Under the pieces are notes generated by a model that did not search any database, had not been told where the DNA came from, and was given only the letters and a program-made list of their open reading frames with translations. The translations under genes were made by a program, and so were the position numbers. 64,000 nucleotides of DNA from Liolophura sinensis (Eukaryota; Mollusca; Polyplacophora; Chitonida; Chitonidae): positions 11,377,191 to 11,441,190 of the forward strand of contig NC_088300.1 of NCBI RefSeq assembly GCF_032854445.1, written 5' to 3'. Of this stretch, positions 15,701 to 63,218 are shown piece after piece. Positions within the stretch are counted from its first letter, which is position 1; every line of letters begins with the position of its first letter.

Positions 15701-18700
15701 GACTGTGACATTTCGTATAAGTTGGAGTTCACAGTGACAAGATGTAGCTCTGACTGTGACATGATGTAGGTATGACTGTGACATTTCATGTAAGTTGGAG
15801 TTCACAGTGATGTGAAGAAGGTTTGACTGTGACATGATGTAAGTGTGACGTTTCATATAAGTGTGAGTTCACAGTGACATGATATAGTTGTGACTGTGAC
15901 ATGATGTAGGTGTGACTGTGACGTTTCACGTAAGTTGGAGTTCACAGTGACGTGAAGTAGGTGTGACTGTGACGTTTCACGTAAGTTGGAGTTCACAGTG
16001 ACGTGAAGTAGGTATGACATTGCACAGATTTTTGTGATTGAAATGTTGTCGTGGTTGTAGCCATTGTATTTATGCATGACTTGTTTTGTTTCTGATCGTG
16101 TAAAGCTAAGCGGGGTAAGTCTCTTCTGTGTCTCTAAAGCTCGTTGTTTTATTGTGTGGCTGGGTGATTTGTCACTGTTTAATTATAACCGAATCAGAAT
16201 TGGATTATTCTGACTGGCTTCTGGTGACATGAAGGAGGCTCAGGGTGATTTTAACCTTGGTTTAATTGGAGTGACGTTTGTGTGTGTAAAATTTTGGTGG
16301 CATTTTTTCAAATGTGCATTTTAAATATAAAAATAAGCTGAGTGTCTGCAGAATTTGCCGTCTGCATGGCTTTTTTGCAAATTACCATTGGTATTATGTG
16401 TGTTGTCTCTCAGAACTAGAATTTCACAAGCCTAAAGTTGTTTTCATGTTTTTTTTTTACTTTCGCACTTCAGTTTCTAGTGTGAACACTTGTATACATG
16501 TACTTGCATGCACTTCTTTGTTTAAGAGTGTTTCATTGGCTCTCCCCTTTCCACCTTTCCAAAGCTGTGTTTCATTGGTTGTTGACTTACCACCTGACTG
16601 TCCTAAGCTGTGTTTCATTGGCTATTGACTTACCACCTGACTGTCCAAAGCTGTGTTTCATTGGTTGTTGACTTTAATACCACCTGACTGGCCAAAGCTA
16701 TGTTTCATTGGCTGTCCCCATACTTCAAACTGTGTTCATGGGCTCTCCCCCTACAACTGGACTGTCCAAAGCTGTGTCTTATGGTGTGTACACCTCATGC
16801 ACATGTCTTGGATTTCTTTCTGGACTTCTGTGAGATTCGCACATTAGTTTTCTGTGGTTAAACAACTGAAAATGCCCTTTTTGTACAGTTTGTACATACA
16901 TTTATACCATAGTAAAAGTATGGAAGGAAAAATCTTCCAAAGGCTCTGGTTGTTGGTTCCAAATGTCTGCTCAGATTAGAAGTGTCCCCTCAGATTTTAA
17001 TTGTTCCCTCAGATTACAAATTCCCCTCAGATTTTAAGTGTCCTCTCAGATTACAAATATCCCCTCAGATTGCAAAAAGTGTCCCTTCAGATTATACGCA
17101 TCCCCTCACATTACAAGTTTCACTTCACATTACAAGTGTCCCATCACATTACAGGTGTCCCCTCACATTACAGGTTTCCCCTCACACTACAAGTGTCTCC
17201 TCACATTACAAGTGTCTCCTCACATTACAAGTGTCTCATCACATTACTAGTGTCTCCTTACATTACTAGTGTCTCCTTACATTACAACTGCTTCCTCACA
17301 TTACAACTGTTCCCTCACATTACCAGTGTCTCCTCACATTACAACTGTTCCCTCACATTACCAGTGTCTCCTCACATTACAACTGTCCCCGTAAGTAGGA
17401 AGGCCTGACAGCAGCTTGCGGATGTTTGCTGGCTGCTGTCGTATAAAAGTGAAATATTCTTGAGTATTGCGTAAAACACCAATCAAATAAATCAAATAAG
17501 TACAACTGTTCCCTCGCATTACCAGTGTCTCCTCACATGACAACTGTTCCCTCACATTACCAGTGTCTCCTCACGTTACAAATGTTCCCTCACGTTATAA
17601 GTACACAACCTTAAAAATTGTCCTGCCATTTTTTCAGAAACGATCTGTTTTACATCTTTGGTGCTTCTATTAAGATTCCAATGTTAGTGCTGGCCATTTA
17701 GATGAGAGAAAAATGAAGGAAAGAGCTCTGTAAGAATTTTATGTGACTGTTATATGTATATGAGAGATCTAATTTCTCTTGAGTATTGTACTTTTAAATG
17801 AGAGATATAATTTCTCTTGACTTTTGTACATTTAGATGAGAGATACCTGAAGATCTACCTGAAGGGAAGAGCTGTTCCATTCTACGCCCCATCATCGTAC
17901 AAAGATGTCCAGGTGGAAAAGCAAGCCCCACCCCCTAGTGAGAAACTTCAACTAGAATGGGTGTATCCTTTCCCGTGAACAGAATATTTATCATGTTCAT
18001 AGTTTCAGGTACATGTAGTAGAGGTTCATTGAGAAATGAAAGGAAATGGCCAAGAGCTCCCTCCTCTTTACCCAATCCCAGCCCTTCTGCCCAATCCCTC
18101 TACCCAAACCCTCTTTCAGTCCTCTCTTCCCAACTCATCTACCAGCCCCATCTGCCAATCCCCTCTGCGACTGCTCTCTACCCAAATCTCCACCAGTCTC
18201 TACCCAATCCCTGTCACTGCCCTCAACTAATCTCATCAACTTAATCCCTCTGTCATCCCCCTCTACCCAATCCCTCTGACACATTATATACCCTATCCCT
18301 CTGTCAGTCTCATCTAGCCAATCCCTCTGTCAGTCTCATCTATCCAATCCCTCTTTCAGTCTTATTTACCTAATCCCTCTGTCAGTCTCATCTACCCAAT
18401 CCCTCTGTCTCATCTACCCAATCCCTCTGGCAGTCTCATCTACCCAATCCCTCTGTCAGTCTCATCTTCCCAATCCCTCTGTCAGTCTCATCTACCCAAT
18501 CCCTCTGGCAGTCTCATCTACCCAATCCCTCTGTCATTCTCATCTACCCAATCCCTCTGGCAGTCTCATCTACCCAATCCCTCAGTCTCATCTGTCCAAT
18601 CCCTCTGTCAGTCTTATCTACCCAATCCCTCTATTTTCTCCTGAGCATGCTAGTCTCCTGCTGGGCATGGTGATCGTCTGCTGGATACATTTGTCTTCTG

Positions 18701-21700
18701 CTGAGCACAGTCTCATCCACCCAATTTCTCAGTCAGTCCCCTCTACCCCTACCCAATCCCTCTGTTAGTCTCATCCACCCAATTTCTCTGTCAGTCAACT
18801 CTACACAGTCCCTCTGTCAGTCCCCTCTACCCTTACCCAACCTCTCTGCCAGCCCTCTCTACCCAACCTCTCTGCCAGCCCTCTCTACCCAGCCCCTCAG
18901 CCAGTCGTCCAGGCACGTCTATCTTTGCTTGTCTCCTCTACTATCTCACACAACCCTACCCCCTGCTAGTCTTGTATGCTAAGCTCGCACCATCCCACCC
19001 CCCTGCTATTGTCCTCTGCTAAGTCCCACTACTCCACCCCTCTCCCAGGCTCCTCTAAACAATCCCCTTGCATGTCCCCTCTACCTGGTTTGACAGTCCC
19101 CTCAACCCAGTCCATCTGCCAGTCCCTTCTTACCCATTCCTTTGCCAGTCCCCAGTCCCACCACCCCCATGTTGGTCTCCTCTACCAGACTGCCCTACCC
19201 AACCTCCTCACTGTCCCACCTGTCTACCGGTCCCAGCTATCCCACTACCCTTCTCGTCTCCTCTGCTATGCCCCAGTATCACAGCCCCCTGCTAGCCCCC
19301 TCTATCAGGCCCAGTACACAAACCCCCTTCTAGTCTCCTCTGTCACACTCACTATCTAACCCCCCTGCTAGTCTCTTTTGGCAGTCACCAGTATTCCAGC
19401 CCCCTGCTGGTCTCCTCCACCAGACCTAGTACTCAAACCTCTTGCTAGTCTCCTCTACCATGCCCTACTACCTTGCTATTCTCCTCTATCAGGCCCACTC
19501 TGCCAATATCCTCTACTAAGCCCCACTATCCCAGTCCCCTGCTAGTCTCCTCAACCAGGCCTCAGTACCCCAAACCCCTGCTAGTGTCCTCTACTACTCC
19601 ATAGTACCCCACCCCTGTGCTAGTCTCCTTTACCAGTCTCCACAACCTCACCTGACTACTCCACACGCTAGGGAAGCGTAATGACCCAGGAGTCTCTCAT
19701 CAATGCGGTCGCTGTGAGTTCAAGTCCAGCTCATGCTGGCTTCCTCTCCGGCCATACTTGAGAAGGTCTGCTAGCAACCTGCAGATGGTCGTGGGTTTTC
19801 CCCCAGACTCTGCCTGGTTTCCTCGCACTATAATTCTGGCCGCCGTCATATAAGTGAAATATTCTCAGCTATAGATCCACCTTTACATGTACCTGCCAAT
19901 CCCCTTTGCCAGGCCCATAAATGTTGAATTATGTTGTGTACTATTGGGGTTGTCTTCTCGAGCACTGCAATATTTCTCCTTGATGGGCACTTCAGATATG
20001 GCTATCGTGGGCGAGACTGCAGATGTAATCTCTATTACCTGCCCACTGGTGAGATCGTGTACTTCACGGCCGCTGTGGTAGTGTTATACAATGTGGAGGA
20101 GCAGATGCAAAGGCATTACACTGGGCACACAGACGATGTGAAGTGGTGAGCACAGTGGTCTTCTGGATTCAGTGGTCTTCTGTTGAGCACAGTGGTCTTC
20201 TGCTGGATTCAGTGGTATTCTGCTGAGCACAGTGGTCTGCTGCTGAGCATAGTGGTCTTCTGATTGATTCAGTGATCTTTTGCTGGATTCAGTGGTCTTC
20301 TGCTGGATTCAGTGGTATTCTGCTCGGTTCAGTGGTCTTCTGCTGAGCACAGTGGTCTTCTGCTGACCACAGTGGTCTTCTGCTGGATTCAGTGGTTTTC
20401 TGCTGGATTCAGTGGTTTTCTGCTGAGAACAGTGGTCTTCTGCTGGGCACAGTGGTCTTCTGCTGGACTCAGTGGTCCTCTGCTGGATTCAGTGGTCTTC
20501 TGCTGGATTCAGTGGTCTTCTGCTGGATTCAGTGGTCTTCTGCTAAGCACAGCCGTATTCTGCAGAGCACAGTAGTTTTCAGCTGAGTTCCGTGGTCTTC
20601 TGCTTAGTACAGTCCCCATCTTCCAAGCACAGTGGTCTTCAGCTGAGTTCAGTGATTTTCAGCTGAGTTCAACAGTCTTCTTCTGAGCACTGTGGTCTTC
20701 TGCTGAGTACCAAGGTCTTCTGTGGAGCACAGTGGTCTTCTGCTGAGTACCAAGGTCTTCTGTGGAGCACAGTGGTCTTCTGCTGAGTACCAAGGTCTTC
20801 TGTGGAGCACCGTGGTCTTCTGTGGAGCACAGTGGTCTTCTGCTGAGTACTGTGGTCTTCTGCTGAGTACCAAGGTCTTCTGTGGAGCACCGTGGTCTTC
20901 TGTGGAGCACAGTGGTCTTCTGCTGAGTACTGTGGTCTTCTGCTGAGTACTGTGGTCTTCTGCTGAGTACTGTGATCTTCTGTGGAGCACAGTGGTCTTC
21001 TGCCGGGTACAGTGGTCTTCTCATGAGTACAGTGTTCTTCTCATGAGCACAGTGGTCTTCTGCTGGGTACTCTGGTTTTCTGTGTTGAATGAATGGCACA
21101 TGAAGAAAGACTAAAGATTTTGCATGGCTGGAGGACCCAGTGAAATTCACATGGCTTGGAAGACCCAGTGAAATTCACATGGCTCGGAAGACCCAGTGAT
21201 ATCAGTTAACTGCGTTTGTGGTAAATACAGTGTATGTATACATATGAAGTACTTGTTTTGTCCATGGGCGATACATTATATAGATGTTAGGTGTTTTGAA
21301 CATGTTCAGAGTTTTAAAAAAATGTGTTTTGTTTGTACAGCCTTGCTATTCATCCCGACAAGATTCGCATTGCCACAGGCCAGGTGGCAGGACATGACAG
21401 AAGGGAGGGGAAGGTAAGTGATTCTGCCTGAGAGGCCTGTAACTACTGCTGTCAAGAGGAGAAGGCCCCTTTCCTTCGGAAATATGGCACCCAGCACCCA
21501 GCACCCAAAGTTTCTTGTCTTTGTCTCCCAAAATTTGAAATTTTCCCAATCATAACCTGAAGTATTCCGTATGTTAAAATTATTAGCATTAAGTAAAATT
21601 ATTAGCATACACTATTCCTTTGTGGTACTTTGTTAAAAACAGTTCAGACTGAAAGAAAAACAAAGTGAAAGTCAACACTGTTGACTGCTTTGTACAGCCT

Positions 21701-24700
21701 CAAAGCCGCTCAGATTGTAAAACAATCAAGGACAAAAGATTGTTGACCAGTTTGTGCTTGTTAAAAGCGCTTCAGTGTGGCTTAATGTTGGCATGGACCA
21801 CACCTGCTAATTGTCTTTATAGCCTATACACATGCAATTCCCCCAATCTTAAATCATGTTAATTGTTATTGTCACCATTATGGTTCTTAAATTCCAGTTG
21901 TGTCAAATTCACATAACAATATGTCCCTTTCCAACATTCCTGAACCATTAGACGGTAGCTTCTCAGTTAAACCTTAATGATTTTACTGTTACACTTAGCA
22001 GAGAGTTGTTATCCCATGTCTAATTACAATTTCAAAAGTCTTGATTAAACTGGTACTATAATAAATCTAAATTTACTAAAGTTTACACACAGTTTCTATT
22101 ATATATTGAAAGCCAACCTAAATGTTATTCCTAAAAGTTATGTCTTTCACTGTCTGGAGAGAAAGTTTTAATATACATAGTTTTTGTATAACAATTGGTA
22201 ATTTATTTACGGATTAGTTTCCTAGTAAGATGTGAATTTTTTGGCCCAAGATATGAACTTTTTGGCCTAAAGTCTTGATGATTATGGATATTGTTTTTCC
22301 ACACTGTTGAACCTCACAGAGGGGAATTCCAGGTGGCAAGTCCAAACGGCTTCCAAGCAATTTAATGGTAGGCTGAACAAATTAACTCCACACTAGTATG
22401 TTTTTATTTTGTCAGTTTGTTTGTGATTGTCATTACCCATTCTAATTCACACCACAACCTGCCCAGAGCATCTGCATGAAATCTGTTGTATGTGTTGTAG
22501 TCACTATTTATACTGTTCTAAGAATGTGAAATTTGTCTTACACTCTTTGTTGACAAGATCACTATATCTTCTGTCATGGCTGTTGCATGATGGGAACTCT
22601 ACCTCCACCACACATGAACCAAGAAATATTCACAAATGTATAACAAACCATACAAAACCCTGACCAAATATCCCAGGAGCTTTAAATGTAACACATCAGT
22701 AAAGAATGAATATGGATCATCTTTAGGGGACCAGTGTGATAGATACCATGCTTTTATAACCAATGGCATGTGTCAGAAAGCACTTGTATGATGAGCTCAT
22801 GGCGTCACTACGGATACCTCATGTTAGAGCTCAAAGAAACAAAATAATGAGAAAAGAAAAAATGACTGTAGTCTAAAGACACCAGTTTGTAATAAGAGTT
22901 ATCACCAGTTTGTAACAACAGATATACCAGTTAGCATGGTCAGTTCATGAGTTTGTAGCAATGGTTATCACAGTTTTGCAGTAGCGGTAACCATCGGTCT
23001 GTAGTGATAAGAACATTACACACCAAACTCACAGTTATAATGGAGGAACTGATCAAAGTATTAGGTGTTAATTTATGTGGTGTTTATTTATTTTTTAACT
23101 TGCATGTTTATTATTGACTGTTATTCTAATTTGTTGGTTTGTGGTTTGGTTTGCTTCCTGTTGGCTGTTGTTATTGACCTGCTGTTGTCTAGAAGTTTCT
23201 CAAAGAACAGTTCAAAGATTCAAAATATGCTGAAGAACATTTCTTGTGGGTAAGTCAAATAAGGTAATAGTCCCAACTGTTAAAATGCTGAATGAAAATG
23301 TAAAATGCTTGAGGGTTATGAATCATTGACTTTTTAGTTGACGTATTCCATTCTATTCTTCAACCGCCCAGTCAGCAATTGAAGATTGACAGTATTCATT
23401 GTCCTGTATAACATTTGTTTTGTGGATTAGAGAAACTGTTTATTAAATTGTAATGATTGTTCTACCATACTGAAACTGAGATTGTAAATTGTCTCTGTCA
23501 AAAGAAGAAAACATTAGACAACTGTTTTTTAATTCTTTAATTGTTTGACGTGTTACTTATTTGACCTGGGCTGTGGATCTGTAAATCCATGGGTACACCT
23601 GTACTTACACATGTAGTTTGCATCTTGCCTTTAGAGATAATCAGGGTTAGGGTAAATCCCAATGGAAGAGGTATTTTTGAACTTTGTGTTGAATTTAACG
23701 TTATTCAAAGTACTCAGCGATATATGGTAATCTGGTGCTCAAGTATTACAAGAGTATCATATACACTGTTTATGTGTTTGAGCTAAGAGATCTGGGCTGG
23801 TATTTGTACCTGTGCATGCCTACAACCAGTATCATATCACCAGAACTGTGCCATGTGCCACTGCTGCAATTCTTCAGCCTTTTTGGCATGTTTGCAATGT
23901 GTTCAATAAAGCTTACTCTGATGACTTTTTATATATGAATCGCACTATAAGCTGCTCGCTCTTAGGAAATGCATTGGGCCTCCATGTCCGAGGGGGCTGG
24001 CATGCCAGCATGGCACAATGACATAGGATCCTCTCATGATTGGGGTCGCTGTGAGTTCAAGCCAAGCTCATGTTGGCTTACTCATCGGCCGTATGTGGGA
24101 AGGTCTTGCAGCAACCTGCAGATGATCGTGAGGTCCCCCAGGGCTTTGCCTGGTTTGCCCCCACCATGATGCTGGCCGCCATCTTATAAGTGGAATATTC
24201 TTGAGTAAGGCATAAAACAGCAATGAAATAAATAAATAAATCTTATGAGGTACAATATAGAATACATCTACATGTAAAAATATTACAGTCGCATGTCCAG
24301 ATCTGGCATTCGGTGTAATTGTCTATGTAATCATTATAAGCCACATGTACAGGTTTGAGACTTTGTGTAACTGACTGTAGAATCATTACAGTCACATGTC
24401 CAGATCTGGCATTCGGTGTAATTGTCTATGTAATCATTATAAGCCACATGTACAGGTTTGAGACTTTGTGTAACTGACTGTAGAATCATTACAGTCACAT
24501 GTCCAGATCTGGCACTCGGTGTAATTGTCTATGTAATCATTACAGCCACATGTTCAGGTTTGGAACTTTGTGTAACTGACTGTAGAATCATTACAGTCAC
24601 ATGTCCAGATCTGGCACTCGGTGTAATTGTCTATGTAATCATTATAAGCCACATGTACAGGTTTGGGACTTTGTGTAACTGACTGTAGAATCATTACAGT

Positions 24701-40540: not shown

Positions 40541-40544
40541 CAGT

Positions 40545-41330: not shown

Positions 41331-42249
41331 TAGTCTATTTCTTTTAGAGTCGCCTACATTCAGCTGTCTGTAAAATCAGTCATACTCGTTACCAAAATTG
41401 CCTTTAGTCAGAGTCACACAACACCATAAGCTCTACGCTTTGGTATGCTGAACGTCCATATCACTGCAAGGAAAATGAAGTTAAAACACTTTTTCTAATT
41501 CATAATGTTGAAGTCCATAAGCTCGGGCACGGCGTATAACACCAAACATCAAACAAATAAATCAAATAAGCTCGGTTTCGACGGCAAAAGCCCATTGCCT
41601 CGGGTGACGTCATAATTATTAAAAACCCAGTGGCATGCTTGACAGGGCCCAATGAGCTGGGTTCAACATATTTTGATGGAGATCGACACCAGTTACCGAA
41701 ACTGCAATCGGTTTTACTGTAAACCCTGCTTCTAACACTTCTGTCATGTTTGATATTGTTAACATGCTTAGTATAATATAACCTTATTTAGGTGAATTTT
41801 ATTTTATCTCTTGCAGTATATGAATTCACGGCTGTATGGTTTTAAAGCTGGATGTTAGGACATTTTGTTATAAAACACAATGTAGCCAATTCGCCGAGTG
41901 TAGTGTAGGCTGTTACCGTCTGGAGTTAGTTCTAACCGCACACTGGTGTACCTATTGTAAAACAACTTACTCTCCACGCCCATTCCCCAGCATGTATGTG
42001 TTTCTTTAATATTACGTCCCCCGAAGCAATGCGCTCTTGGCGTTGAAACTGAGCTTATGCAGTTTAACGTTATAAATTATAGTGTGTAAGTGTTGTAATT
42101 TGATCTTCTTTGCAAGAATATGGACTTGCAACAAATCCATGTGTAGAGCTTGTGTTGTTACGTGTCACTGACTAAAGGCAATTTTGGTAGCGAGAATGAC
42201 TGGGTTTACAGAGAACTAAATATAGGCGACTCTCTAAAGAAATAGACTA
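41331..42249. mobile_element. DNA-transposon-like element with about 190-bp terminal inverted repeats, copy 1
   Basis: The left end reads TAGTCTATTTCTTTTAGAGT, then CATACTCGTTACCAAAATTG and AACACTTTTTCTAATTCATA. The right end is the reverse complement of this (GGCAATTTTGGTAGCGAG near 42178, ending AGAAATAGACTA at 42249). No transposase frame lies between, so it is a non-autonomous element or relic. A SINE tail has inserted into its left arm at about 41529-41564. The flanking TA could be a target duplication. Confidence 0.82.
41529..41572 (+). mobile_element. SINE tail fragment inside the inverted-repeat element
   Basis: GGCACGGCGTATAACACCAA and ACAAATAAATCAAATAAG are flanked by ATAAGCTCG on both sides. 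The second copy of the host element (near 50880) reads CATAAGCTTAGTTTCGAC without the insert. This is an occupied versus empty site, with a likely 9-bp target duplication. Only about 35 bp of the SINE 3' end is present. Confidence 0.72.
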
Positions 42250-51800: not shown

Positions 51801-54800
51801 GTGAGTTTGTACTTTGCTTACCATAGTAACTGTGTTTACAAGAGTACTGTGGAAAATACGGTCATCCTTGTCCGCCTAACACTAAATTGTTCAGCGATAT
51901 ATCCAAACTTTCTTTATTATTGCCAACCTAATACTAAACATTTTGTGTTCACGCTCTCTTATACACTATATATCCGTAGTTACCAGTCTAACAATAAATA
52001 GTTCGGCGATATATCCACGTCCTGCTAGTTTACTTGTAGCACTAAATTATTCAGCGCTATATCCACACATCGCTAATCTAAAACTAAGCTGTTCAGCGAA
52101 GTATCCACACCTTGATAGTCGAGTACAAAATTGTTCAGCAATATATCCACACCAGGTCAGTCTACATAAAGTACTAAATTGTTCAGCGCAATATCCACAC
52201 CTCGCTAATCTAGCACTAAACTGTTCAGCGATGTATACACTCATTCTTTTTATCCTTGTCAGCCTTCAATCCATTTATAATCTCATACATTAGGTTGATC
52301 AGGATTTACTTGGTTAGACTTATCTCACTCCAGACTATTTGATTTGTATACACAAGATACGTACTTTTTGTCTAGGTGTTGCAACCGCATCAACTCCATC
52401 CCTTGGTTTGTCTTCTTCTGTTGTGTGCTCAACTTCTTGGAAGGCTATGCGGTGAACGGGATCACGAGCATCAACCTAACGGCGCTGGAGGTTCAGTTCC
52501 AGCTGACGAGCACGCGGTCAGGTCTGATTGCCAGCGCCACCAACATCGGAGCCCTCACCTGTGTCCTGGCTGTCAGTTTCCTTGGGACAAGTAGACATAA
52601 GCCCATATGGACGGGGGCAGGCGCCATGGTCATGGCTATTGGATCATTGCTCTTCATCGTACCTCACTGGGCAGGAGGCAACTACCAGTTCTCAGGTATG
52701 ATTTAGTGGACATAAGTTAGCACCAGATTTTGTTTTTATTCGAATATCGAATATTGTACTAGCACTACATTAGTTATTCGAATCTCGAATAACACGATGG
52801 CAATATAGATGTTAAGAAGACAGTCGGTTGTCGTTATTCAATTTTTTAAATTTATTTGATTGGTGTTTTACGCCGTACTCAAAAACATTTCACTTATACG
52901 ATTATGTTGGGAGGAAACCTGATGGTGCCGGAAAAAACCTAAGACCATCTGCAGGATGCTGGAAGCCCTTTCGTTATTTGAATAACATTCATTATCCAGA
53001 TATTGAATAATGTGCTAGTAGTACAGAATTTTGCACCAAACTTGTTTTTTGTGATGGAATAATGAATATCGTCCAAGCACGATATTGAATACTTAGATCT
53101 TAAATGACGTGCTGATCGTACAGAATTTAGCATCGGGTTCGCCTTCACTGGCATCTTGTATTCATACATCCAGCAGCGTGCTGACTACGGTATGGTGCTA
53201 TCACATTATGTACCTCCAGCAGCGTGCTGACTACGGTATGGTGCTATCACGTTATGTACCTCCAGCGGCATGCTGACTACGGTATGGTGCTAACACGTTA
53301 TGTACCTCCAGCGGCATGCTGACTACGGTATGGTGCTATCACATTATGTACCTCCAGCAGCGTGCTGACTACGGTATGGTGCTATCACGTTATGTACCTC
53401 CAGCAGCGTGCTGACTACGGTATGGTGCTAACACGTTATGTACCTCCAGCGGCATGCTGACTACGGTTTGGTGCTATCACATTATGTACCTCCAGCAGCG
53501 TGCTGACTACGGTATGGTGCTATCACATTATGTACCTCCAGCAGCATGCTGACTACGGTATGGTGCTATCACGTTATGTACCTCCAGCAGCGTGCTGACT
53601 ACGGTATGGTGCTAACACGCTATATACCTCCAGCAGCGTGCTGACTACGGTTTGGTGCTATCACATTATGTACCTCCAGCGGCATGCTGACTACGGTATG
53701 GTGCTATCACGTTATATACCTCCAGCAGCGTGCTGACTACGGTATGGTGCTATCACGTTATATACCTCCAGCAGCGTGCTGACTACGGTTTGGTGCTATC
53801 ACATTATGTACCTCCAGCGGCATGCTGACTACGGTATGGTGCTAACACGTTATATACTTCCAGCAGCGTGCTGACTACGGTATGGTGCTATCACGTTATA
53901 TACCGCCAGCAGCGTGCTGACTACGGTATGGTGCTAACACGTTATATACTTCCAGCAGCTTGCTGACTACGGTTTGGTGCTATCACGTTATGTACCTCCA
54001 GCAGCGTGCTGACTACGGTATGGTGCTAACACGTTATATACCTCCAGCAGCGTGCTGACTACGGTATGGCGCTAACACGATATACATAGGTGAAGCAAGA
54101 AACTTACTTGAAGTTTGTGCCTCGACGCTTGTCAGTTTTCGAAAGTAGGAAGTTTAAACAAATATGGTGTTCGCGAGTTTTTCGTTGGTCAACTGTACAG
54201 TAACACGTTGGCTCGAATATGGTGCCTGTGGTACGATTTTCGTTATTCGCATCTCAAATAAAATCTTTGCGCGCATATGGTGCAAGCATATGTTTCGTTA
54301 ATGGGATCTAAAATAGGAAGTTTTCCCGAATGTGGTGTTAGCGGCTTTTTCAGCGCCTTAGTAACATATTGGTTCGAATATGGTGCTAACACCTTTTTCA
54401 TTATTCAGATTTTCAGTAACGTGCAGGCTGAAATATGGTGTCAGCACGATTTGCGTTATTTGGGTCTTCAATTAATAACGTGCCAGCTCGAAAATAGTGC
54501 CAGCGCGATATTCGTTATTCGAAAAACCAAAAAACAATATGGTGCTAACTTCCATCTTGCCAGCATATTAAAATTGAGATTCGAATAACTTACTAGCACC
54601 ATATTCGAGCTAGCATTTTACTGAAGAAGCGAATAACGAGAAACGTCGTGGCAAAAATTCGAGTAAACTTCTTATTCCACATCTGAATAACGTGCTAGCA
54701 ACATATTCGAGACATCGCCTTATCGGAGATTTGACTTCAAATGCTGAACACGGTGCAAAATTCGGTATGTCCAGCAGGTCATTTGAGACTGGAATATCGA

Positions 54801-57800
54801 ATCTGGTGCTAGCACGATATTCGTCATCCAAACAACTAAAAACGAATATGGGGTCAACTTCCTTATTGAAGGCACTGTATTCAAGATTCTACAGATCAAA
54901 TTACGCTAAAATCGAGTGGATTGCCTTTCAGCGTGCGACTTAGATATCATTTATTGCGTTGTGATGCTAGAGCAGCAGGAAGATATAAATATTTATTCCT
55001 CCATGAAATGTCGCAGTAAGACAATTTGATATCTCAGACCACGCCGTAAGACGACGTGATATCTTAGACCACGCCGTTAGACGACGTGATATCTCATAAC
55101 GACTTGATATCCCAGATCAGGCTTTTGTAAGGTTTTAAGTTACCGTAAGCCATGAAAAGACAGTTGTAATAAGCTTTGAAAACTTGTATGCGGAAAATGG
55201 TGAGTTATTTAAAAATTAGTGCTGCTCTTAAATAGGATCTGTCAAATTAGTGATACCTACACCGTTAGTTTGCGAGATTTTAGTTTGGCACATGTGCGTT
55301 TCTTTCCGCGTGATTTGTGGTAAATATTCATACATTCGTAGGCCTCAATGCCAATCAGCTGCAAACTGCTTCATATGCGTACAAATATTCGTTTTAATAT
55401 GTTAAGAAATTACTTTGTCTTTTTCTCTATCAACAAGTAAAATGTTTGGGCACGGAATAGTCTGATATGCTGTCGATAACGGGAGATTTCCGCATAAGTC
55501 ACATCCAGCTATTGGTTGTCATCCGATGAATATCAGGACGTTAAGGTCTTTCTGTTTCAGGAAAGACAAATTCTGATGTCCTATGTGACAAGAACAGAAA
55601 TATTTCTAGCCCTGCAGCGCCGCCTGGGGGTGAGTCCCCATACCTATGGGTGTTGATGTTGGCGAACGCTCTCCACGGAGCGGGATACACTCCACTCTAC
55701 ACCCTGGCTATAGCTTACATCGAGGAGAACGAAAACTTCCAGCTGGCTGGATTTCATGTCGGTACGTTTCGTTATCATAACCTAAACGACGTCATATGTT
55801 TAATTAGCCAACCTATACAATTGTGTCAGAATTAACGACCAAAACTATAAACGCTTTTACCGTTAACAATACCACTGTGTGGTTGTCTAGAAACTATATA
55901 AAATAAACTCTATATTTTTCATACCTAATAATGCACCTCAATACGTGGAACATGGTGTAATTTTAATCAGCGATACAGATGAAATTAACGAGCGATCACT
56001 GTGTGATAGGTTCAGTTATGTTGTAGGACTATTTTATGCGTCGGCAGCTGTCGGTGTGGCGACAGGGTTCTTGTCAGGAGGTCAATTCCTACAGTTCTAC
56101 GTGGATTTTGATCGCGTCGACATGGACAGGTATTAATTCAGCGATATCATAAGTGGCCAGAAATGTTTTGTTTACTCCCTTAATTTACTATGAATGTGTC
56201 CTCCCATTATATTATGGCGGCCGTTGCATAAGTCAAATAATCTTTAGAACGGCGTAAGAAACCAAACAAATAAATAAATAAATCCTAGAAAATAGGCCAT
56301 ATTTGCGTTCCATGACCGTCACATGATGCATGTCGCGTGGCGATTTTTTTTTATCACAATACCATATAGTAACACCCAGTGCGAGATAGGGAAGAAATCA
56401 CCATTCATTCTGAGCGTTATCGATGTTCGACCAGTGCATGTATGCTGCTCAAAATCCACCGGCATCATATGAAGCATGTGGTAGTCTTGTTAGATGTCGT
56501 GTTTCCGCTCATACTCAGCGCGGGGAATGTTCTGTAAGATGAGTCCGTTTCCTTTCATACTTTACATGAGAAAAATCTTGTTAGATGGCGCGTTTCTGCT
56601 CATACTTAGCGCGGGGAATGTCTTGTAAGATGGGTGCGCTTCCTATCATACTTTACATGAGGTAAGTCTTGCTAGATGGCGCGTTTCCGCTCTTACTTAT
56701 CGACGGGAATGTCTTGTAAGATGGGTGCGCTTCCTATCATACTCAAGATGAGAAAAGCTTTATAAGATGGTGTGTTTCCTGTCATTCTTGGTATGGGATA
56801 AACTTTGTTAGACGGTGCGTTTCCTATCATACTCAGCATGAGAAAAGCTTTGTACGATGGTCTGTTTCCTATCATACGTAACAACAGAAACCTTTGTAAG
56901 GTGGCACGTTTTCATTTATGCTTGGCATGAGAAAAACGTTGTATGATGGTGCATTTCCAAACATACCTAGCATGAGAATCCATGTAAGATGATGAGTTTC
57001 TTATCATACTTAACAAGGGATAAGCCTTCTAAAATGACACGTTTTCTATCATTTTGGACGAAAGGCCTTGGGCGAAAACTAGTTACCTGTCATATTTAGC
57101 GCGGGAAAAATGCCAAGAGTGATGGCATGTACTTTGGGTGAGAAAATCCTTGTGTGATGGCGTGTTTCCCCTGCTACTTAGCTTGAGGAAAAGCCTTGAG
57201 TGATGGCGTGTTTCTCCTTGTACTTAGATGGAGGGAAATAATGGCGCGTTTCCTTTTATACTTTGGTTGAAGAAATCCTTGAGTGATGGCGTGTTTCCCC
57301 TTATACTTTGGTTGAGGAAAGCCATGTGTGATGGCATGTTTTCCCTTATACTTTGCTTGAGGAAAACTTTGCATGATGGCGTGTTTCCCCTTATACTTAG
57401 CTTGAGGAAAGTGATGCCGCGTTTCCTTTTATACTTTTGTTGAGGAAAGCCTTAAGTGATAGCATGTTTTCCCTGATGCTTAGCTTGAGGAAAGCCTTGT
57501 GTGATGACGTGTTTCCCCTGTTACTTAACTTGAGGAAAGCCTTGAGTGATGGCGTATTTCCCCTGATACTTAGGTTGAGGAAAGCCTTGTGTGATGGCGT
57601 GTTTCCCCTTATACTTAGGTTGAGGAAAGCCTTGTGTGATGGCGTGTTTCCCCTTATACTTAGCTTGAGGAAAGCCTTGATTGATGGCGCTTTTCCCCTT
57701 ATACTTAGCTTGAGGAAAGCCTTAAGTGATGGCATGTTTCACCTGATATTTAGCTTGAGGAAATCCTTGTGTGATGGTGTGTTTCCCCTGATACTTTGGT

Positions 57801-60800
57801 TGAGGAAATCCTTGTGTGATGGTGTGTTTCCCCTGATACTTTGGTTGAGGAAAGCCTTGTGTGATGACGTGTTTCCCCTGATACTTTGGTTGAGGAAATC
57901 CTTGTGTGATGGTGTGTTTCCCCTGATACTTTGGTTGAGGAAATCCTTGTGTGACGGCGTGTTTTCCCATATACGTTGGATGTGGAAAGCCTTGTGTGAT
58001 GGCGTGTTTCCCCTTGTACTTTGGGTGAGTAAAACTTTGCATGATGGTGTGTTTCCCCTTATACTTAGCTTGAGGAAAGTGATGGCGCGTTCCTTTTATA
58101 CTTTGGTTGTGGAAAGCCTTGAGTGATGGCATGTTTTCCCTGATACTTTGCTTGAGGAAAGCCTTAAGAGATGGCGTGTTTCCCCTGATACTTTGGTTGA
58201 GGAAATCCTTGTGTGATGGTGTGTATCCCCTGATACTTTGGTTGAGGAAATCCTTGTGTGATGGTGTGTATCCCCTGATACTTAGGTTGAGGAAAGCCTT
58301 GTGTGATGGCGTGTTTCCCCTGTTACTTAGCTTCAGGAAAGCCTTGAGTGATGGCGTGTTTCCCCTGATACTTAGGTTGAGGAAATCCTTGTGTGATGGT
58401 GCGTTTCCCCTGATACTTTGGTTGAGGAAATCCTTGTGTGATGGTGTGTTTCCCCTGATACTTTGGTTGTGGAAGGCCTTGTGTGATGGCGTCTTTCCTC
58501 TTATACTTAGCTTGAGGAGAGCCTTACATGTTGGTGTGTTTCCCCTGATACTTAGCTTGAGGAAAGTACTGCGTGATGGCGCATTTGCCTGAAACTTAGC
58601 AAGAAGAAAACCTGGTGAATGGCGCGTTTCCCCTCATAGTCATCATGAGAAGTGCATTGCTAGATGACTCGTGTCCTCTCAAATTTAGCAAGGTGATTTT
58701 GGCATGTAGATCAGTGCTGATGTCCTGTGTATTTTAGACTAGAATTTGTTTCTTTGTTCCTTGTAATCCCGTATATGTTTGGACTGTTCAGCATCAACCT
58801 GACCCCGAATGATCAGGGCTTCTGGGTGGGTGCCTGGTGGCTGGGTTACATCGTGTCTACCGCGGGCTTTGTCTTGTTTGCTCTGCCGCTGTTCGGCTAC
58901 CCGAAACACATGAAAGGTAAGTAGACAATGACAGACGAAGGTTGCATAATTATTTTGTCAACGAGTCGAATAGGCCTACAAGCGATGGTTAAGGAAAGGT
59001 ATAATGCAAGCAGTTTTTAATTTTTCACCATCTATGAGCAAGTTTTATGACACTTCGAGAAAGTTTTCCGTAAATGGTGCCAGGTTATTATTCTTTTTCA
59101 CGTGGCGTGTATACTGGTGAAACTAGATAAATATTCCTGGTTCCGACAGTACTGATATAAGGGCCTACTGGATCTTGGGAAAACTTTTTTGATATTAATA
59201 ATTATTGAACGGCTGCAGGCCGTACGTGAAAAGGTCTGTCGACAACCAGCAGGTGGTCTTGAGTTTCCACTGTGCTCTGCTCGGTTTTCTCCCATCATAA
59301 TGCTGATCGTCGTCGTATACGTGAAATGTTACGGCGTAAAACACCAATCAAATAAATAAATAAACTAAATAAAATAAATAAATTATTGGACGGCTCTTTC
59401 AGAGGTTTTGTTAAGGCTCTAACAGCACCTCACATCCATCTGGACATATTCTCAATCATCCAGAGAATGGATAGAGACCGTATTTCTGCTGTAACCTTTG
59501 GCTGGAAATTAGGGGCGAGGCTGAGATGCTACAAATCTCCTGTATTTGTAAATAGGATACAAAGACAGCGGAACGGACAAGCCGAGAGACGGAGTTGGGT
59601 TAGATAAGAGAATAGTGCGGAAAACCTGCCTCAGTTTTGCCATGGCCTTCGTACGTCTGGTAAGTTAAACTATTTACCATGTGCAGCTAGTAGGTCTATA
59701 TTCAGGTCAATCAGTCCACAGTACTAGCAATATTTAGGTCAATCAGTCCACAGTACTAGCAATATTCAGGTCAGTCAGTCCATCAGACGAGCAATACTGA
59801 GGTCAGACAAGCAATATTGAAGTCAATTAATCCACCAGGCTAGCAACATTGAGACCAATCAGTCCATCAGAATAATAATATTGAGGTTTGTCAGTCCTTG
59901 AGACTAGCAATATTGAGGCCAGTCAGTCAACTAGTCTAGCCATATTGAGGTCTGTCAGCCCACCAGACTAGCAAGATTGAGATCAATCAGTCCACCGGCC
60001 TGGCGATATTGAGGTCATTCAGTCTACCAAAGTTGCAGAACATATCTACCCCAAAAGGTGAAACAATTGGTATATTTCATGCTGTCTTTCTCTACCCCAC
60101 CCCCTCCTCCACAACTCATGAATTTTAGACCAATCAACGGCAAGCTGAACAGTTTGACGTAAATATTTCAAAGCTGCACATGCCTGAAGTCGTTGCGCGA
60201 CGTATATGTAAAAGTCTTGTAGTTACAAAAATGGCAAATAATGTAAAATAGCACCTTTCTCACTAAAGGAAAACAAGTTCAAATCCTTTTATTTGGAGAA
60301 AAAAACACAAAACAGTGTATTATTGGGAGAGCTAAACGTACCAGCAGATATGTTGCCTGACATAGTAATTGTTTGAATGTGTGTAATTGCACACGAACAG
60401 CAACTAATAACGGGGTAGAATATTTGTTCTCTGTTGTGGTTTCGCAACTCGGTGCTATTTGTCCTCTGCCACCGTTTGGTACACAGTGTTATTTGTCCTC
60501 TGTTACAGTTCTGTAACCCAGTGTTATTTGTCTTCTGTTACAAGTTTGTAACCCAGTGCTATTTATCTTCTGTTACAGTTCCATAATCCCTTGTTATTTG
60601 TCCTCTTTACAGTTTCATAACCCTGTTGTTACCTGTTTGTGACAGCCAGCTTCAGTGGTGTTATTTTTCCTCTTTGACACTTTCATAAGCCGTTGCTTTG
60701 CCTTCTCTTTGTGGCAGTTCGCTTTATAGATGTTATTTCTCCTCTTTGACACTTCCATAAGCCGTTGCTTTGCATCCTGTCTGTGACAGCCCTCTTTACT

Positions 60801-63218
60801 GGTGTTATTTCTCCTCTTTGACACTTTCATAAGCCGTTGCTTTGCCTCCTCTTTGTGACAGCCCGCTTTATAGATGTTATTTATCCTCTTTAACACTTCC
60901 ATGAGCCATTGCTTTGCCTCCTCTTCGTGACAGCTAGCTTCAGTGGTGTTATTTTTCCTCTTTGACACTTCCATAAGCCGTTGCTTTGCCTCCTCTTCGT
61001 GACAGCTAGCTTCAGTGGTGTTATTTTTCCTCTTTGACACTTTCGTAAGCCGCTGCTTTGCCTCCTCTTTGCCATAGCCCGCTTCATTGGTGTTATTTAT
61101 CCTCTTTAACACTTCCATGAGCCGTTGTTTTGCCTCCTCTTCGTAACAGCCAGCTTTCTTGGTGTTATTTCTCCTCTTTGACACTTTCATAAGCCGTTGC
61201 TTTGGCTCCTCTTTGTGACAGTCCGCTTTATTGGTGTTATTTCTTCTCTATAAGAGTTTAATGAGCTGTTATTTCCCCTGCTCTTTGTGACAGACAGCTT
61301 TATTGGTCTTATTTGCCATCTTTGATAGTTTCATAGACAAGCTTTCTTTAACAACCTGCTTTGTTCGTGTTATCTATCCAGTGTTTCGTAAGTCGATGTT
61401 TTCCCTCCTCTCTTTGCCAGCCTGCTTTATTTCTGTTAATATGAACACTGTTACAATTCCATAACTCATTGTTTGCCCTCATTTCCTCTCCCCCTTCCTC
61501 TCTTTGACAATCTGCTTTATGCCGGTTGTTTTGTCCACTGTTACAGTTCCGTAACCCGATGTTTTCCCTTCTCTCTTTGACAACCTGCTTTAACTGTAAC
61601 TTGATGTTTTCCCTTCTCTCTTTGACAACCTGCTATACCCGTGTTATGTATTCACTGTTACAGATTTGTAAGCCGGTGCTTTCCCTCCTCTCTTCGACAA
61701 TCTGTTATATCTGTGTTATTTATTCTCTGTTTCAGTTTCGTAACCCGGTGTTTGTCCTCCTTACTCTGGCTGCGTCTTGTGTAGGGATGATAATCAATGG
61801 AATCAGTTCGTTTTCTGCAAAGTATCTCTACGAGCAGTTCGGAATTCGCTTTGATGTCATAGGCTATATTCTGGGTAAATATCATGAGAATTTTGATTGC
61901 TTAGTTCAGCATGAAGCCGAGCCTATCTGACACTACAACCCCTGTCACGTGTTACGAAGCCAGTCTTAACCTTGGAGCAGGATCGGCCAAAACATCAAAT
62001 TGGCCTGTTACTTTCTTTGTCACTGGCTCACTTAACACACACTCCCCAAAACGATGGTCCAGGCATACACAAAAAACTAGTGGTAAATTTGTTACCAACA
62101 CGCTAATCTGTGTAAATTTGCAATCTGTAAATTTGTCTGTTCCTTCAGAAGATGTATATTGGCTTTTTTGTAATAGTACAGCTGATACATGTTAATCTTA
62201 TATGGTTTGTAATTCGGATGAAATCAATCAAAACCTCCCTGTCCGCCTGTATCGTTTCTAACATATGTACCTGTTTTTACATGAGATGTAGACTGAACTG
62301 CGGTACATACTGATTGGTGACTTCAGGTGGCCTGATTGTGCTTGGATCCGGCGGAGGAATGGTTTTAGGAGGCGCCCTCGTCCGTGTGATGAAACTCGAG
62401 ATACGCGGGATAGTCAGATTGTGTCTGATTTGCGTTCTGGTTGGTTCCTTGAGTGGCATCGCCCTATTGGCGAGGTGCCCGGATGTGAACCTCGTGGGTC
62501 TCAACTCACAGTACGCCAACGACAGGTGGGTGGTCTTTTAAAACAGTATCTACTATGGCAAACCAAACCTTGCATTATTTAAAAAGAAAAATAGATTGAT
62601 CATGAAAAAAATACATGCAATTATAATCCCGTTTAATCATTATAAAAGGTAAAATACCGTGGATTTCTAGACAAAGCACCGTACCGTAACGTGAGCCTAT
62701 CATCTGAGTTTGGAGAATACGACATTCACAAACATGAATGCTCATTCACTGCTTTCATCAGTTCTATTGAATGTTGGTTAAGTCATGCGGTGTCAGAAAT
62801 ATTGTTTTTTTACACAGTTCCACAGTAAACTTTCATGTCAACTGTGATGATTTCCAGGAATACCCTTTAGTTTGTTTGTTAAATACATCTGTAGGATCGT
62901 CTTCTGCTGTTTTTCAGGTTTGTAACATTTTTGTCACAAAGTCTGTGGCTTTTTATGGCTTAAATTTTGTGTTCGTTTTTGACTTGCTCTATGTAAAAGT
63001 TTCCCCATCGGTCTGGTTTGTACCCATTTGCCTATGCTGCTCACTTTCTCGTTCACTTACTTTTCTGTTTCCGTTTCAGTTCTGAAGAAAACTTCGTTGC
63101 GAGCTGTAACGTGAACTGTGCATGTGATGCAATGCGCTTCTCCCCGGTCTGTGGATCCAACTCTACTGTCTTCTTCTCCCCATGTCACGCCGGCTGCTCT
63201 CACGCTTTCTCTCCGCTG
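42842..63218 (+). CDS. Organic anion transporter (OATP/SLCO4-like) gene, 11 exons seen, 3' incomplete
   Basis: Whole-gene entry; exons are listed separately. OATPs are 12-TM plasma-membrane carriers of the major facilitator type that exchange large organic anions (conjugated steroids, thyroid hormones, eicosanoids). Seen: a cytoplasmic N-terminus (residues 1-75), TM1-3 in the 52376 exon, TM4, TM5, the family signature as NDQGFWVGAWWLGYI, TM6, a Lys-rich loop, TM7-8, and the Cys-rich Kazal-like loop between TM9 and TM10 (CNVNCACD, SPVCGSN, SPCHAGC). Exon lengths total 1641 nt, 547 codons in one frame. SLIASATNIG and TPLYTLAIAYIEEN are closest in memory to SLCO4A1. TM10-12 lie beyond the window, so length and exact subfamily are open. 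Confidence 0.92.
43097..43161 (+). CDS. SLCO exon 2: cytoplasmic N-terminus
   Basis: Acceptor TTTTTTTTTCAG, donor GTATGT. Reads TETPSTVAVSEGRDPVRVQP and A, leaving AC to be completed by C of the next exon (Thr). Low-complexity acidic/hydrophilic N-terminal sequence, unconserved among OATPs. Confidence 0.65.
43220..44935. repeat. 74-bp minisatellite
   Basis: About 23 copies stepped by 74 bp (GGCGCAGTTAATGAGGTCAT at 43301 and 43375). Units carry TGATATTACAGGTGGCGCAG and CACACAATGAGTTAGGCCAT. A block of about 180 bp (around 44210 and 44400) recurs, a second-order duplication. The TATTACAG|GTGGCG word is an acceptor look-alike in nearly every unit. Confidence 0.95.
44936..45905. repeat. degenerate extension of the 74-bp array
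   Basis: GAGGTCATGTCTGATGTCAC and ATAGAGGTTG words persist with irregular spacing and insertions. Older part of the same array. Confidence 0.8.
46150..46700. repeat. degenerate minisatellite, about 55-bp unit
   Basis: Recurring TCTCGTGGTTTTGTACCCA and ATGTGGCACGTATA with TACACGTTAAATT. Around nine diverged copies. Confidence 0.8.
46815..48235. repeat. 22-bp minisatellite
   Basis: About 64 copies of a 22-bp unit, GGCTGAGTGACAGTACAACA, with an AAGCTGAGTGACAGTACAACC variant more common in the right half. Open frames on the minus strand (up to 224 codons, rich in Cys, Val and Leu) are artefacts of the array. Confidence 0.95.
48438..48557 (+). CDS. SLCO exon 3: cytoplasmic N-terminus
   Basis: The acceptor is read as AGCTCTATCAG. 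This choice is forced by frame: C completes AC to Thr, then IAPLYLLNSEDMSHASSASR, NWEHRLLPPVSMDERRMYH, leaving AG. The alternative acceptor at 48469 (TCTGAAG) would hit TAG or be out of phase. Donor GTAAGT. Hydrophilic N-terminal tail just before TM1. Confidence 0.72.
48700..49205. repeat. 42-bp minisatellite
   Basis: About 11 copies of GGAACTGGTATGGAGGTAGT and ATGTGTTGGCATGACAAGC. Blends into the next array. Confidence 0.93.
49206..50090. repeat. 43-bp minisatellite related to the previous one
   Basis: Units GAAACTGGTATGGAACATAG and CACACGCTGACATTTCAACC. The GAAACTGGTATGGA half is shared with the 42-bp array, so both likely descend from one unit. Confidence 0.92.
50115..50690. repeat. 43-bp minisatellite
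   Basis: About 11 regular copies of TGTTGGTGTGGAGCCATGTG and TTTATGTATCCATCTTGGAC, with three diverged copies at the left end. Confidence 0.93.
50695..51510. mobile_element. DNA-transposon-like element with long terminal inverted repeats, copy 2
   Basis: The left arm (GCCGCCTATATTCAGCTCTC, CAGTCATACTCGTTACC, ACTTTTTCTAATTCGTGATG) is homologous to that of the element at 41331. The right arm (AGGCAATTTTGGTAGCGAG, ending AACAGAAATAGAC) is its reverse complement. The outermost left bases are degraded. No coding frame between the arms. Confidence 0.8.
51870..52245. repeat. 46-bp degenerate tandem repeat
   Basis: About eight copies of CTAAATTGTTCAGCGATATA and TCCACACCTCGCTAATCTA upstream of the SLCO exon at 52376. 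They do not resemble that exon. Confidence 0.85.
52376..52695 (+). CDS. SLCO exon 4: TM1-TM3
   Basis: Acceptor ACTTTTTGTCTAG, donor GTATGA. Reads (R)CCNRINSIPWFVFFCCVLN for the start of TM1, then FLEGYAVNGI, then SGLIASATNIGALTCVLAVS (TM2), HKPIWTGAGAMVMAIGSLLF (TM3) and PHWAGGNYQFS. The order SGLIAS..(D/N)I, then HKP.W.G.G..(L/V)M..GSL.F..PH is the conserved OATP N-terminal block. Residues about 70-176. Confidence 0.95.
52845..52970 (-). mobile_element. SINE fragment, antisense, 3' part
   Basis: TTTATTTGATTGGTGTTTTA then CGCCGTACTCAA is the complement of the family tail; GAAACCTGATGGTGCCGG and ACCATCTGCAGGATGC follow. The tRNA head is missing. Confidence 0.85.
53165..54085. repeat. 46-bp minisatellite
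   Basis: About 20 copies of TATGGTGCTATCACGTTATG and TACCTCCAGCAGCGTGCTGA plus CTACGG, very uniform. Variants (AGCGGCATG, GCTAACACG) alternate in blocks, suggesting expansion of multi-unit segments. Confidence 0.95.
54086..54940. repeat. diffuse AATATGGTGC / ATTCG repeat zone
   Basis: Loose recurrence of GAATATGGTGCTAGCACG and CGTTATTCGAATCTC without a fixed period; similar words also occur at 52735-53160. Probably an older, decayed array. Confidence 0.55.
54941..55560. other. intron with one small repeat
   Basis: Around 55015-55110 GACGACGTGATATC recurs three or four times. Nothing else recognised. Confidence 0.5.
55561..55761 (+). CDS. SLCO exon 5: extracellular loop and TM4
   Basis: Acceptor TTTCTGTTTCAG. 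Reads (G)KTNSDVLCDKNRNISSPAA, then SPYLWVLMLANALHGAGYTP and LYTLAIAYIEENENFQLAGF, HV. HG(A/V)G.(T/S)PLYTL...Y(I/L)(D/E)(D/E)N is a defining OATP stretch, and NIS is a possible N-glycosylation site. The strong donor GTACGT at 55762 leaves one G; a weaker donor four bases on (GTTTCG at 55766) leaves two. See the next exon for the consequence. Confidence 0.9.
55979..56129 (+). CDS. SLCO exon 6: TM5 (start uncertain: 55979 or 56016)
   Basis: Certain part: YVVGLFYASAAVGVATGFLS then GGQFLQFYVDFDRVDMD, matching the OATP TM5 block (.GIFY..A.LGPA.GF..GG). Donor GTATTA leaves AG. With the strong donor of exon 5, only an acceptor at 55978 (GCGATACAG) keeps frame and adds DEINERSLCDRFS. With the weaker donor after 55765, the better-looking acceptor GATAGGTTCAG at 56015 fits and gives FHVGTYVVGLFY. 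The second is nearer to the normal loop length. Sequence alone does not settle it. Confidence 0.82.
56192..56286 (+). mobile_element. SINE 3' fragment
   Basis: GTCCTCCCATTATATTATGG, CGGCCGTTGCATAAGT, then ACGGCGTAAGAAACC and AAATAAATAAATAAATCC. Diverged tail and lower body only. Confidence 0.82.
56455..58690. repeat. 45-bp minisatellite
   Basis: About 45-50 copies of a 45-bp unit, CCTTGTGTGATGGCGTGTTT then CCCCTGATACTTTGGTTGAG and GAAA; the left 700 bp is more diverged. The unit is a multiple of three, so 15-residue-period frames up to 229 codons run on both strands. Not coding. Confidence 0.95.
58738..58916 (+). CDS. SLCO exon 7: OATP signature and TM6
   Basis: Acceptor TGTGTATTTTAG, donor GTAAGT. 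Reads (R)LEFVSLFLVIPYMFGLFSI, NLTPNDQGFWVGAWWLGYIV, STAGFVLFALPLFGYPKHMK. The segment D-Q-G-F-W-V-GAWW-L-GY is the OATP family signature at the start of TM6, with F where many members have Arg. GYPK/R follows TM6 in the family. NLT is a possible glycosylation site. Residues about 294-353; leaves G. Confidence 0.96.
59207..59384 (+). mobile_element. 5'-truncated SINE
   Basis: GGCCGTACGTGAAAAGGTCT, GTGGTCTTGAGTTTCCAC, CATCATAATGCTGATCG and ACGGCGTAAAACACCAATC plus an extended AAATAAATAAATAAAC tail. Confidence 0.88.
59556..59659 (+). CDS. SLCO exon 8: cytoplasmic loop before TM7
   Basis: Acceptor TGTATTTGTAAATAG, donor GTAAGT; too short to be seen as a long frame. Reads (G)YKDSGTDKPRDGVGLDKRI, VRKTCLSFAMAFVRL, in phase on both sides. 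In OATPs this loop is hydrophilic and ends with an (A/S)...LL(K/R)NP-type entry to TM7, matched by VRL|FRNP across the next junction. Confidence 0.85.
59690..60040. repeat. 31-bp degenerate minisatellite
   Basis: About 11 copies of AATATTGAGGTCAATCAGTC and CACCAGACTAGC with substitutions. Confidence 0.88.
60041..60420. other. intron, no feature recognised
   Basis: No array, SINE or exon recognised. Confidence 0.45.
60425..61735 (+). repeat. 72-bp minisatellite built from the next exon's acceptor and start
   Basis: The real exon reads CTGTTTCAG|TTTCGTAACCCGGTG then TTTGTCCTCCTTACTCTGG. The array repeats this in degraded form about 18 times. The closest copies are CTGTTACAG|TTCCGTAACCC with GATGTTTTCCCTTCTCTC at 61547 and CTGTTACAG|ATTTGTAAGCCG at 61664. 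The regular 72-bp core has TTTCATAAGCCGTTGCTTTG, CCTCCTC and GTGACAGCC. At 61547 the copy still translates QFRNPMFSLL, against QFRNPVFVLL in the exon. The minus-strand frame of 191 codons over it is an artefact. Confidence 0.87.
61736..61874 (+). CDS. SLCO exon 9: TM7
   Basis: Acceptor TCTCTGTTTCAG (last of a series of similar ones), donor GTAAAT. Reads FRNPVFVLLTLAASCVGMII, NGISSFSAKYLYEQFGIRFD, VIGYIL. (K/R)NP.F.LL.L......I.G...F..K(Y/F)(L/I)E.QF matches the OATP TM7 block. Leaves G. Residues about 389-434. Confidence 0.95.
61875..62326. other. intron, no feature recognised
   Basis: Short intron without repeats. Confidence 0.45.
62327..62525 (+). CDS. SLCO exon 10: TM8 and TM9
   Basis: Acceptor TTGGTGACTTCAG, donor GTGGGT. 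Reads (G)GLIVLGSGGGMVLGGALVR, VMKLEIRGIVRLCLICVLVG, SLSGIALLARCPDVNLVGLN, SQYAND. The Gly-rich GGG...GG(A/F).(V/I)...(K/R)L..RG pattern of TM8 and (L/F)..(H/R)CP...(V/L)(A/V)G(L/V) after TM9 fit OATP well. Leaves AG. Residues about 435-500. Confidence 0.95.
63080..63218 (+). CDS. SLCO exon 11: Kazal-like extracellular loop
   Basis: Acceptor TTTCCGTTTCAG, donor GTGAGG. Reads (S)SEENFVASCNVNCACDAMR, FSPVCGSNSTVFFSPCHAGC, SHAFSPL. The CN..C.C......PVCG.(N/D)....(Y/F)(F/L)SPCHAGC pattern is the OATP Kazal-type module between TM9 and TM10; NST is a possible glycosylation site. The remaining cysteines and TM10-12 must be in exons past 64000. Residues about 501-547. Confidence 0.95.

Follow-up and report, generated by a model that had tools for sequence, protein, structure and literature searches.

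Zhuo et al. in 2007 reportedly described introns originating from tandem arrays, and Gao and Lynch in 2009 are said to have described internal gene duplication as a source of introns. The name mirages was given in amphioxus to tandem duplications of exon-intron boundaries that resemble minisatellites (PMC3087553); the available portions of the literature place them there in Adh3 and in the globins BflGb6 and BflGb9, troponin C and PGBD5 being added by PMC3902484, which also cites work of 2002 on amphioxus Adh. In the same portions, amphioxus mirages are reported to show allelic and somatic instability of copy number together with normal splicing (PMC3087553, PMC3902484). In genes of human segmental duplications, according to the accessible part of PMC2812944, internal tandem repeats at exon-intron boundaries form new introns in paralogues.

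In this study, we analysed minisatellites that carry the ends of the exons they adjoin in the mollusc Liolophura sinensis. The original prediction held that no named repeat class was known to be defined in this way; as far as the accessible text of the amphioxus reports extends (PMC3087553, PMC3902484), that class already had its name. We propose, with a probability of about 0.83, that the arrays are mirages, i.e., ordinary minisatellites founded by a tandem duplication that happened to span a splice junction. What would be new here is the occurrence of mirages in a mollusc, together with a rough frequency of about 2 to 3% of exon ends.

The window genes and their arrays

The window (the whole stretch of 64,000 nucleotides analysed here) holds two genes, and the claim that the arrays lie in two unrelated genes was borne out by Pfam, which names EML propellers and HELP in one and OATP and Kazal in the other:

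7253 to 37338, forward strand: EML gene, 19 exons in the model (named by Pfam, aligned with 4ci8)
48472 to 63218, forward strand: OATP/SLCO-like transporter gene, 9 exons modelled, continuing past the window (Pfam)

The EML translation, taken from an earlier model in which exon 7 started at 25105, aligned end to end with the EML1 chain 4ci8. That start lies 45 nt too far in and is ruled out by the conserved PHVRIWDS segment, which sets the start of exon 7 at 25060. After this correction, the 19 residues of exon 6 (23193-23249) seemingly have no 4ci8 counterpart; this exon may be optional, the frame still being open when it is removed.

TRF returned 113 array rows in the window; once these were merged by hand, 44 arrays touched introns, making up 48% of intron DNA. 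With exon 7 modelled at 25105, arrays covered 2 of 52 edges at 1 nt into the introns versus 18 of 48 at 300 nt, and uniform seeding predicted 2.7 +- 1.5 junction-straddling units; 4 to 5 were observed, so that the number of mirages in the window is not clearly in excess of what its array density gives.

Other repeats are present as well. A 72-bp minisatellite at 2439-4517 (~29 copies, 93% matches) lies in a C-rich stretch 5' of the EML exons. Two similar-looking, MITE-like foldback elements of about 0.75 to 0.9 kb, at 41346-42233 and 50724-51476, have long inverted arms that are 79% complementary over 146 nt in one and 85% over 131 nt in the other. By eye, a SINE-like interspersed repeat recurs at about 9290-9560, 19670-19870, 23980-24240, 31270-31540, 36115-36345, and 39540-39710, with a conserved body common to the copies and an aataaataaat tail in several; the copy at 31270-31540 sits between two parts of a 34-bp minisatellite. 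Elsewhere in the genome, another contig carries eight consecutive hemocyanin units of family PF14830, an arrangement characteristic of molluscs that speaks against amphioxus as the origin of the window.

The terminal 40 exon nt of each window edge were compared with the adjacent intron, the other introns serving as the null, and in a second test whole junctions of 12 candidates were compared in register. The first test was rerun with the corrected exon 7 and a 300-nt intron flank, only exons of at least 40 nt being taken; the negative exon-copy result obtained for 25105 is void because the true acceptor of exon 7 is 25060. With the 300-nt flank and the 40-nt probe, the exon-copy score exceeded 13 at 4 of 50 window edges and 14 at three, the passing edges being donor 31869 and acceptors 25060, 61736, and 35802. 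The arrays at these edges, and a weaker one, are as follows:

31870 to 33221, forward strand: donor mirage, 36-bp array 3' of EML exon 14 (31713-31869), 37 aligned copies
24282 to 25085, forward strand: acceptor mirage at EML exon 7 (acceptor 25060), unit of about 51 bp with a 103-bp dimer (TRF)
60421 to 61761, forward strand: acceptor mirage, array with a unit of about 72 bp at an OATP/SLCO-like exon (61736-61874) (TRF)
35463 to 35801, forward strand: acceptor mirage, 86-bp array before EML exon 17 (acceptor 35802) (TRF)
17760 to 17845, forward strand: weak mirage, 38-bp array at EML exon 3 (acceptor 17836) (TRF)

At donor 31869, the exon-only score reached 21 versus a null maximum of 13, the best copies were identical at 19 of 20 exon nt, and GT was retained in 22 of 37 copies. 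The array at acceptor 25060 ends 26 nt within exon 7; its 40-nt exon probe scored 20 versus a null maximum of 14, and AG was present in 9/9 copies aligned without gaps. The array at acceptor 61736 extends 26 nt into its exon, with an exon-only score of 18 versus a null maximum of 13 and AG retained in 5 of 14 copies. Acceptor 35802 was borderline on the exon alone (14 versus a null maximum of 12) and scored 30 versus 21 over the full junction, with AG in 0 of 3 aligned copies. Chance similarity was rejected on these scores for 25060, 31869, and 61736 and, at the junction level, for 35802. At acceptor 17836, where the array covers 10 exon nt in register, the junction score was 26 versus a null maximum of 22, and the exon-only score of 12 did not exceed the null.

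Two further arrays next to EML exons were not mirages by the junction test:

20147 to 21082, forward strand: intronic 20-bp array starting 2 nt past EML exon 4 (donor 20145)
29130 to 29266, forward strand: 47-bp array after the EML exon ending at 29109

The former matched the exon at 7 of 20 positions versus 19 of 20 on the intron side, and the latter at 6 of 20 versus 16 of 20. Exon-carrying arrays at donors 20145, 29109, 29487, and 33399 and at acceptors 31713 and 58738 were unsupported in the register comparison, these rejected candidates being repeats of intron sequence only or holding nothing of the exon. The predicted set of five acceptor and two to three donor arrays carrying exon sequence is thus narrowed to four acceptors (17836 weak) and one donor, exon sequence being unsupported at the remaining candidate donors and acceptors.

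Exon edges and intron points in a genome sample

The sample was drawn from the 609-Mb genome of the window through the Pfam families myosin head, adaptin N, Sec1, and kinesin. Of 262 Pfam matches, 177 were taken to be free of stops; merging placed them in 141 regions, and the 140 that were used yielded 175 matches with 324 exon edges at which a splice site was plausible (323 after correction). In the uncorrected first pass, 13 of the 324 edges lay above the 99.5% null point and 14 above the 99% point, the controls giving 4/322 in exon interiors and 32/323 in introns at +80 to +120. After reading of the 14 first-pass hits, junctions were shifted in L002, L003, L038, L135, and L138; L002, L038, L135, and L138 then lay below the threshold, L138 being nonetheless aligned as a short donor mirage in the set used for copy anatomy. 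Donor L024 was dropped because it proved to be a 54-bp repeat whose frame is open, and not an adaptin exon. This tandem repeat (G000:C1:79678452-79679963), whose 604-codon open frame gives the adaptin match, is either a repeat protein or a noncoding array without stops. Edges without a hit were kept as predicted, except L040 and L047, which were re-read.

With the 40-nt probe (null rates of 1.0%, 0.4%, and 0.07% at thresholds 13, 14, and 17), outward copies were found at 9, 8, and 6 of 323 exon edges, at 1/301 exon interiors at each threshold, and at 32-37, 28-35, and 24-30 of 317-323 pseudo-junctions, which were intron points 80 to 140 nt out, taken in four sets. About 3 chance passes at threshold 13 and about 1.3 at threshold 14 are expected among 323 probes. 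L124 passed at both of these thresholds; by eye it shows one weak match, which may be due to chance. Inspection by eye accepted the eight other hits, five at donors and three at acceptors, as real. By position, the nine hits fall in seven genes, or six without L124, besides the two window genes, and edges within one gene are not independent in the sample statistics. The mirage rate stands at about 2 to 3% of sampled exon ends (8-9/323 predicted junctions and 6/244 high-confidence junctions). A match-end rule gave 11/333, a count that includes some chance hits, and added L040, L047, and L135; by eye, L047 has no array. L040, located immediately past the match end in a myosin gene, is an array at a donor that shares ~8 to 9 exon nt, like 17836; short overlaps of this type are missed by the 40-nt junction test. 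Exon-carrying edges make up a larger share in the window than in the sample (3/52 or 4/52 versus 8/323; p 0.19 or 0.07), which would speak against random seeding, though the window had been chosen for them.

Edges exceeded exon interiors (8-9/323 versus 1/301; Fisher p 0.02 to 0.04). Boundary-type hits, in which the edge segment is repeated outward and the next inner segment is not, were counted with the 40-nt probe at 8, 7, and 5 of 323 edges versus 10-15, 7-11, and 4-10 pseudo-junctions at thresholds 13, 14, and 17. At threshold 14, this sets 7/323 edges against 11/323, 9/323, 7/322, and 9/317 intron points (Fisher p 0.47 to 1.0). Probes of 20 and 25 nt gave 4 to 6 boundary-type hits at edges and 3 to 9 at pseudo-junctions; with the 25-nt probe at threshold 14, the edges (6/323) were above three of the intron sets (7, 4, 3, and 3 of 317-323). 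The uncorrected first pass had given 9/324 at edges versus 9, 6, 7, and 6 at the intron sets. TRF coverage, profiled on first-pass junctions without L024, was 2/323 at -60 (exon), 13/323 at the junction, 40/323 at +300, and 35/315 at +400, with no peak at the edge across the sampled exon-intron junctions. In the reduced form offered by these 323 edges, the expected enrichment at exon edges held over exon interiors and failed over intron points. Altogether, no clear preference of seeding for exon edges emerged, although by our estimate a sample of this size could miss an excess as large as about two-fold; arrays seem to begin anywhere and to be lost from exon bodies.

Copies within the arrays and their possible origin

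Thirteen cases, four from the window and nine from the sample (including L138 and without L124), were aligned around the junction, and 25060 was aligned separately. Donor copies have GT in 58/73 instances versus 0.70 for other dinucleotides, and the six sampled donor arrays have it in 36/36 copies, which, being non-independent within an array, count as six arrays. This retention could hint at use of the site or at seeding by it. Acceptor copies have AG in 19/38 instances versus 0.61 for other dinucleotides (28/47 including 25060). Selection purging or favouring decoy splice sites left no clear sign either way in the aligned copies. Scored with a site matrix built from 26 window sites, decoys reached the authentic score in L050 (6/6), L009 (4/5), L114 (4/6), and 31869 (14/37), in L103 (2/9), L102 (1/4), L049 (1/16), 61736 (1/14), and the single copies of L062 and L138 (1/1 each), and in 0/7, 0/3, and 0/2 copies of L003, 35802, and 17836, respectively.

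Modal copy spacings were multiples of three in 4/10 cases (36, 63, 66, and 72 versus 31, 31, 47, 64, 73, and 86), one third being expected and 17836 and two single-copy cases being omitted from the count. Where the reading frame is known (11 mirages), three have one decoy inside the open frame and eight have none; most decoys could not lengthen the frame, which weakens the suggestion that the arrays might create alternative exon ends and act as a source of new coding sequence. Arrays of 5 to 16 aligned copies are found in L003, L009, L049, L050, L103, and L114. L062 amounts to little more than one tandem duplication of an exon edge and represents a two-copy stage, the expected starting point of arrays. 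In L003, seven copies are identical to each other over the 26-nt junction window and unlike the authentic one (1.00 versus 0.81).

We propose that slippage or unequal exchange would duplicate some 30 to 100 bp at a random position in a gene. From the pattern in the sample, duplications abound in introns and are nearly absent from exon bodies; a duplication across a junction could survive, the copy beside the exon body staying a complete junction. The intronic copies would amplify and partly homogenise, as supported by the resemblance of the L003 copies to each other, and the authentic junction would stay under selection. By analogy with amphioxus, the exon-proximal site would still be spliced, the decoys would be removed, and the arrays would be mostly neutral. 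Tandem amplification over a junction, the innermost site being retained, is an apt description, as originally put forward; enrichment in the sample was seen over exon interiors and not over intron points. The real site does lie nearest the exon body, and this position implies no mechanism, being forced by geometry, since use of an outer site would turn the inner copies into exon. Uniform birth of arrays and purifying selection would suffice for the pattern, and therefore no new mechanism is needed.

Tandem duplication might instead be started at exon edges by features of the junction, such as R-loops, nucleosome edges, or motifs such as AGGT. Such targeting would agree with the excess of edges over interiors (8-9/323 versus 1/301), with the good retention of donor GT in copies, and with the 25-nt count at threshold 14, where 6/323 edges exceeded three of four intron sets. 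However, purging of coding sequence makes exon interiors an unfair control, TRF coverage has no junction peak, the 40-nt boundary rate is not above that of introns (8 versus 10 to 15; 7 versus 7 to 11), and at threshold 17 the edges fall within the intron range (5 versus 4 to 10), and we consider targeted seeding improbable. Misassembled repeats or misplaced exon ends could also make intron arrays look exonic, and such errors did occur, one acceptor having been modelled at 25105 instead of 25060 and 6 of the 14 first-pass sample hits having been at misplaced junctions or beside no exon. The EML protein nevertheless aligns with 4ci8 without a gap across junctions 31869 and 35802, the reading frame was checked again for sampled hits in doubt, and the pattern recurs in six sampled genes besides the two of the window, which makes an artefact very improbable.

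That the decoys form a functional reservoir, serving as alternative exon ends, as splicing regulators, or as a source of introns or coding sequence, appears quite improbable too. Some decoys equal the authentic matrix score (L050, L009, L114, 31869), and the accessible portions of the literature propose mirage-derived intron gain in amphioxus globins (PMC3087553) and new introns formed by boundary repeats in human segmental duplications (PMC2812944). In amphioxus, however, mirages reportedly leave splicing undisturbed, as far as these portions go (PMC3087553, PMC3902484), and in our set 8 of the 11 frame-known mirages lack a decoy in the open frame, spacings have no marked bias towards multiples of three (4/10), and acceptor AG is retained no more than other dinucleotides (19/38 versus 0.61; 28/47 with 25060). 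We hold it rather unlikely that decoy sets are variable in length in thousands of genes, with about 1 exon end in 30 to 40 flanked, and that they render some exon ends polymorphic within the population and give rise to new introns or to exon extensions. If such variable decoy sets were true, the mirage model of intron gain would be directly testable outside lancelets, and if decoys are used, genomes of this kind would offer a natural setting in which to study intron gain.

Comparison with known systems

The arrays, read as mirages, share with the cases ascribed to Zhuo et al. and to Gao and Lynch the duplication of splice sites in tandem copies, the instances of intron gain being theirs. At the sequence level, the class assignment is mirage by four features, namely, a tandem minisatellite-like repeat beside an exon (TRF, five window edges); a unit holding both intron and exon at 25060, 31869, 35802, and 61736, 17836 having only 10 exon nt; occurrence at 5' and 3' boundaries, with one donor and four acceptors (17836 weak) in the window; and GT or AG in many but not all copies (58/73 and 19/38; 9/9 at 25060). 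In the literature searched, which consisted mostly of titles and the beginnings of abstracts and covered few subscription papers, the name mirage was found in print only for amphioxus, and no report of mirages in molluscs was found.

As far as the accessible part of PMC2812944 describes them, the human repeats are, like ours, minisatellite-sized and placed at exon-intron boundaries, and they can change splicing; unlike ours, which lie in conserved genes and are seen in genomic sequence alone, the human repeats arose recently, vary between paralogues, and concern new introns backed by transcripts. From amphioxus mirages, as the available portions of the reports present them, the arrays described here differ in their host, a mollusc, in their genes (EML, OATP-like, kinesin, myosin, and adaptin), and in being known from the sequence of one assembly. 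Like them, they consist of tandemly repeated, minisatellite-like units lying across an exon-intron boundary, concern either 5' or 3' splice sites, and keep GT or AG in many of their copies.
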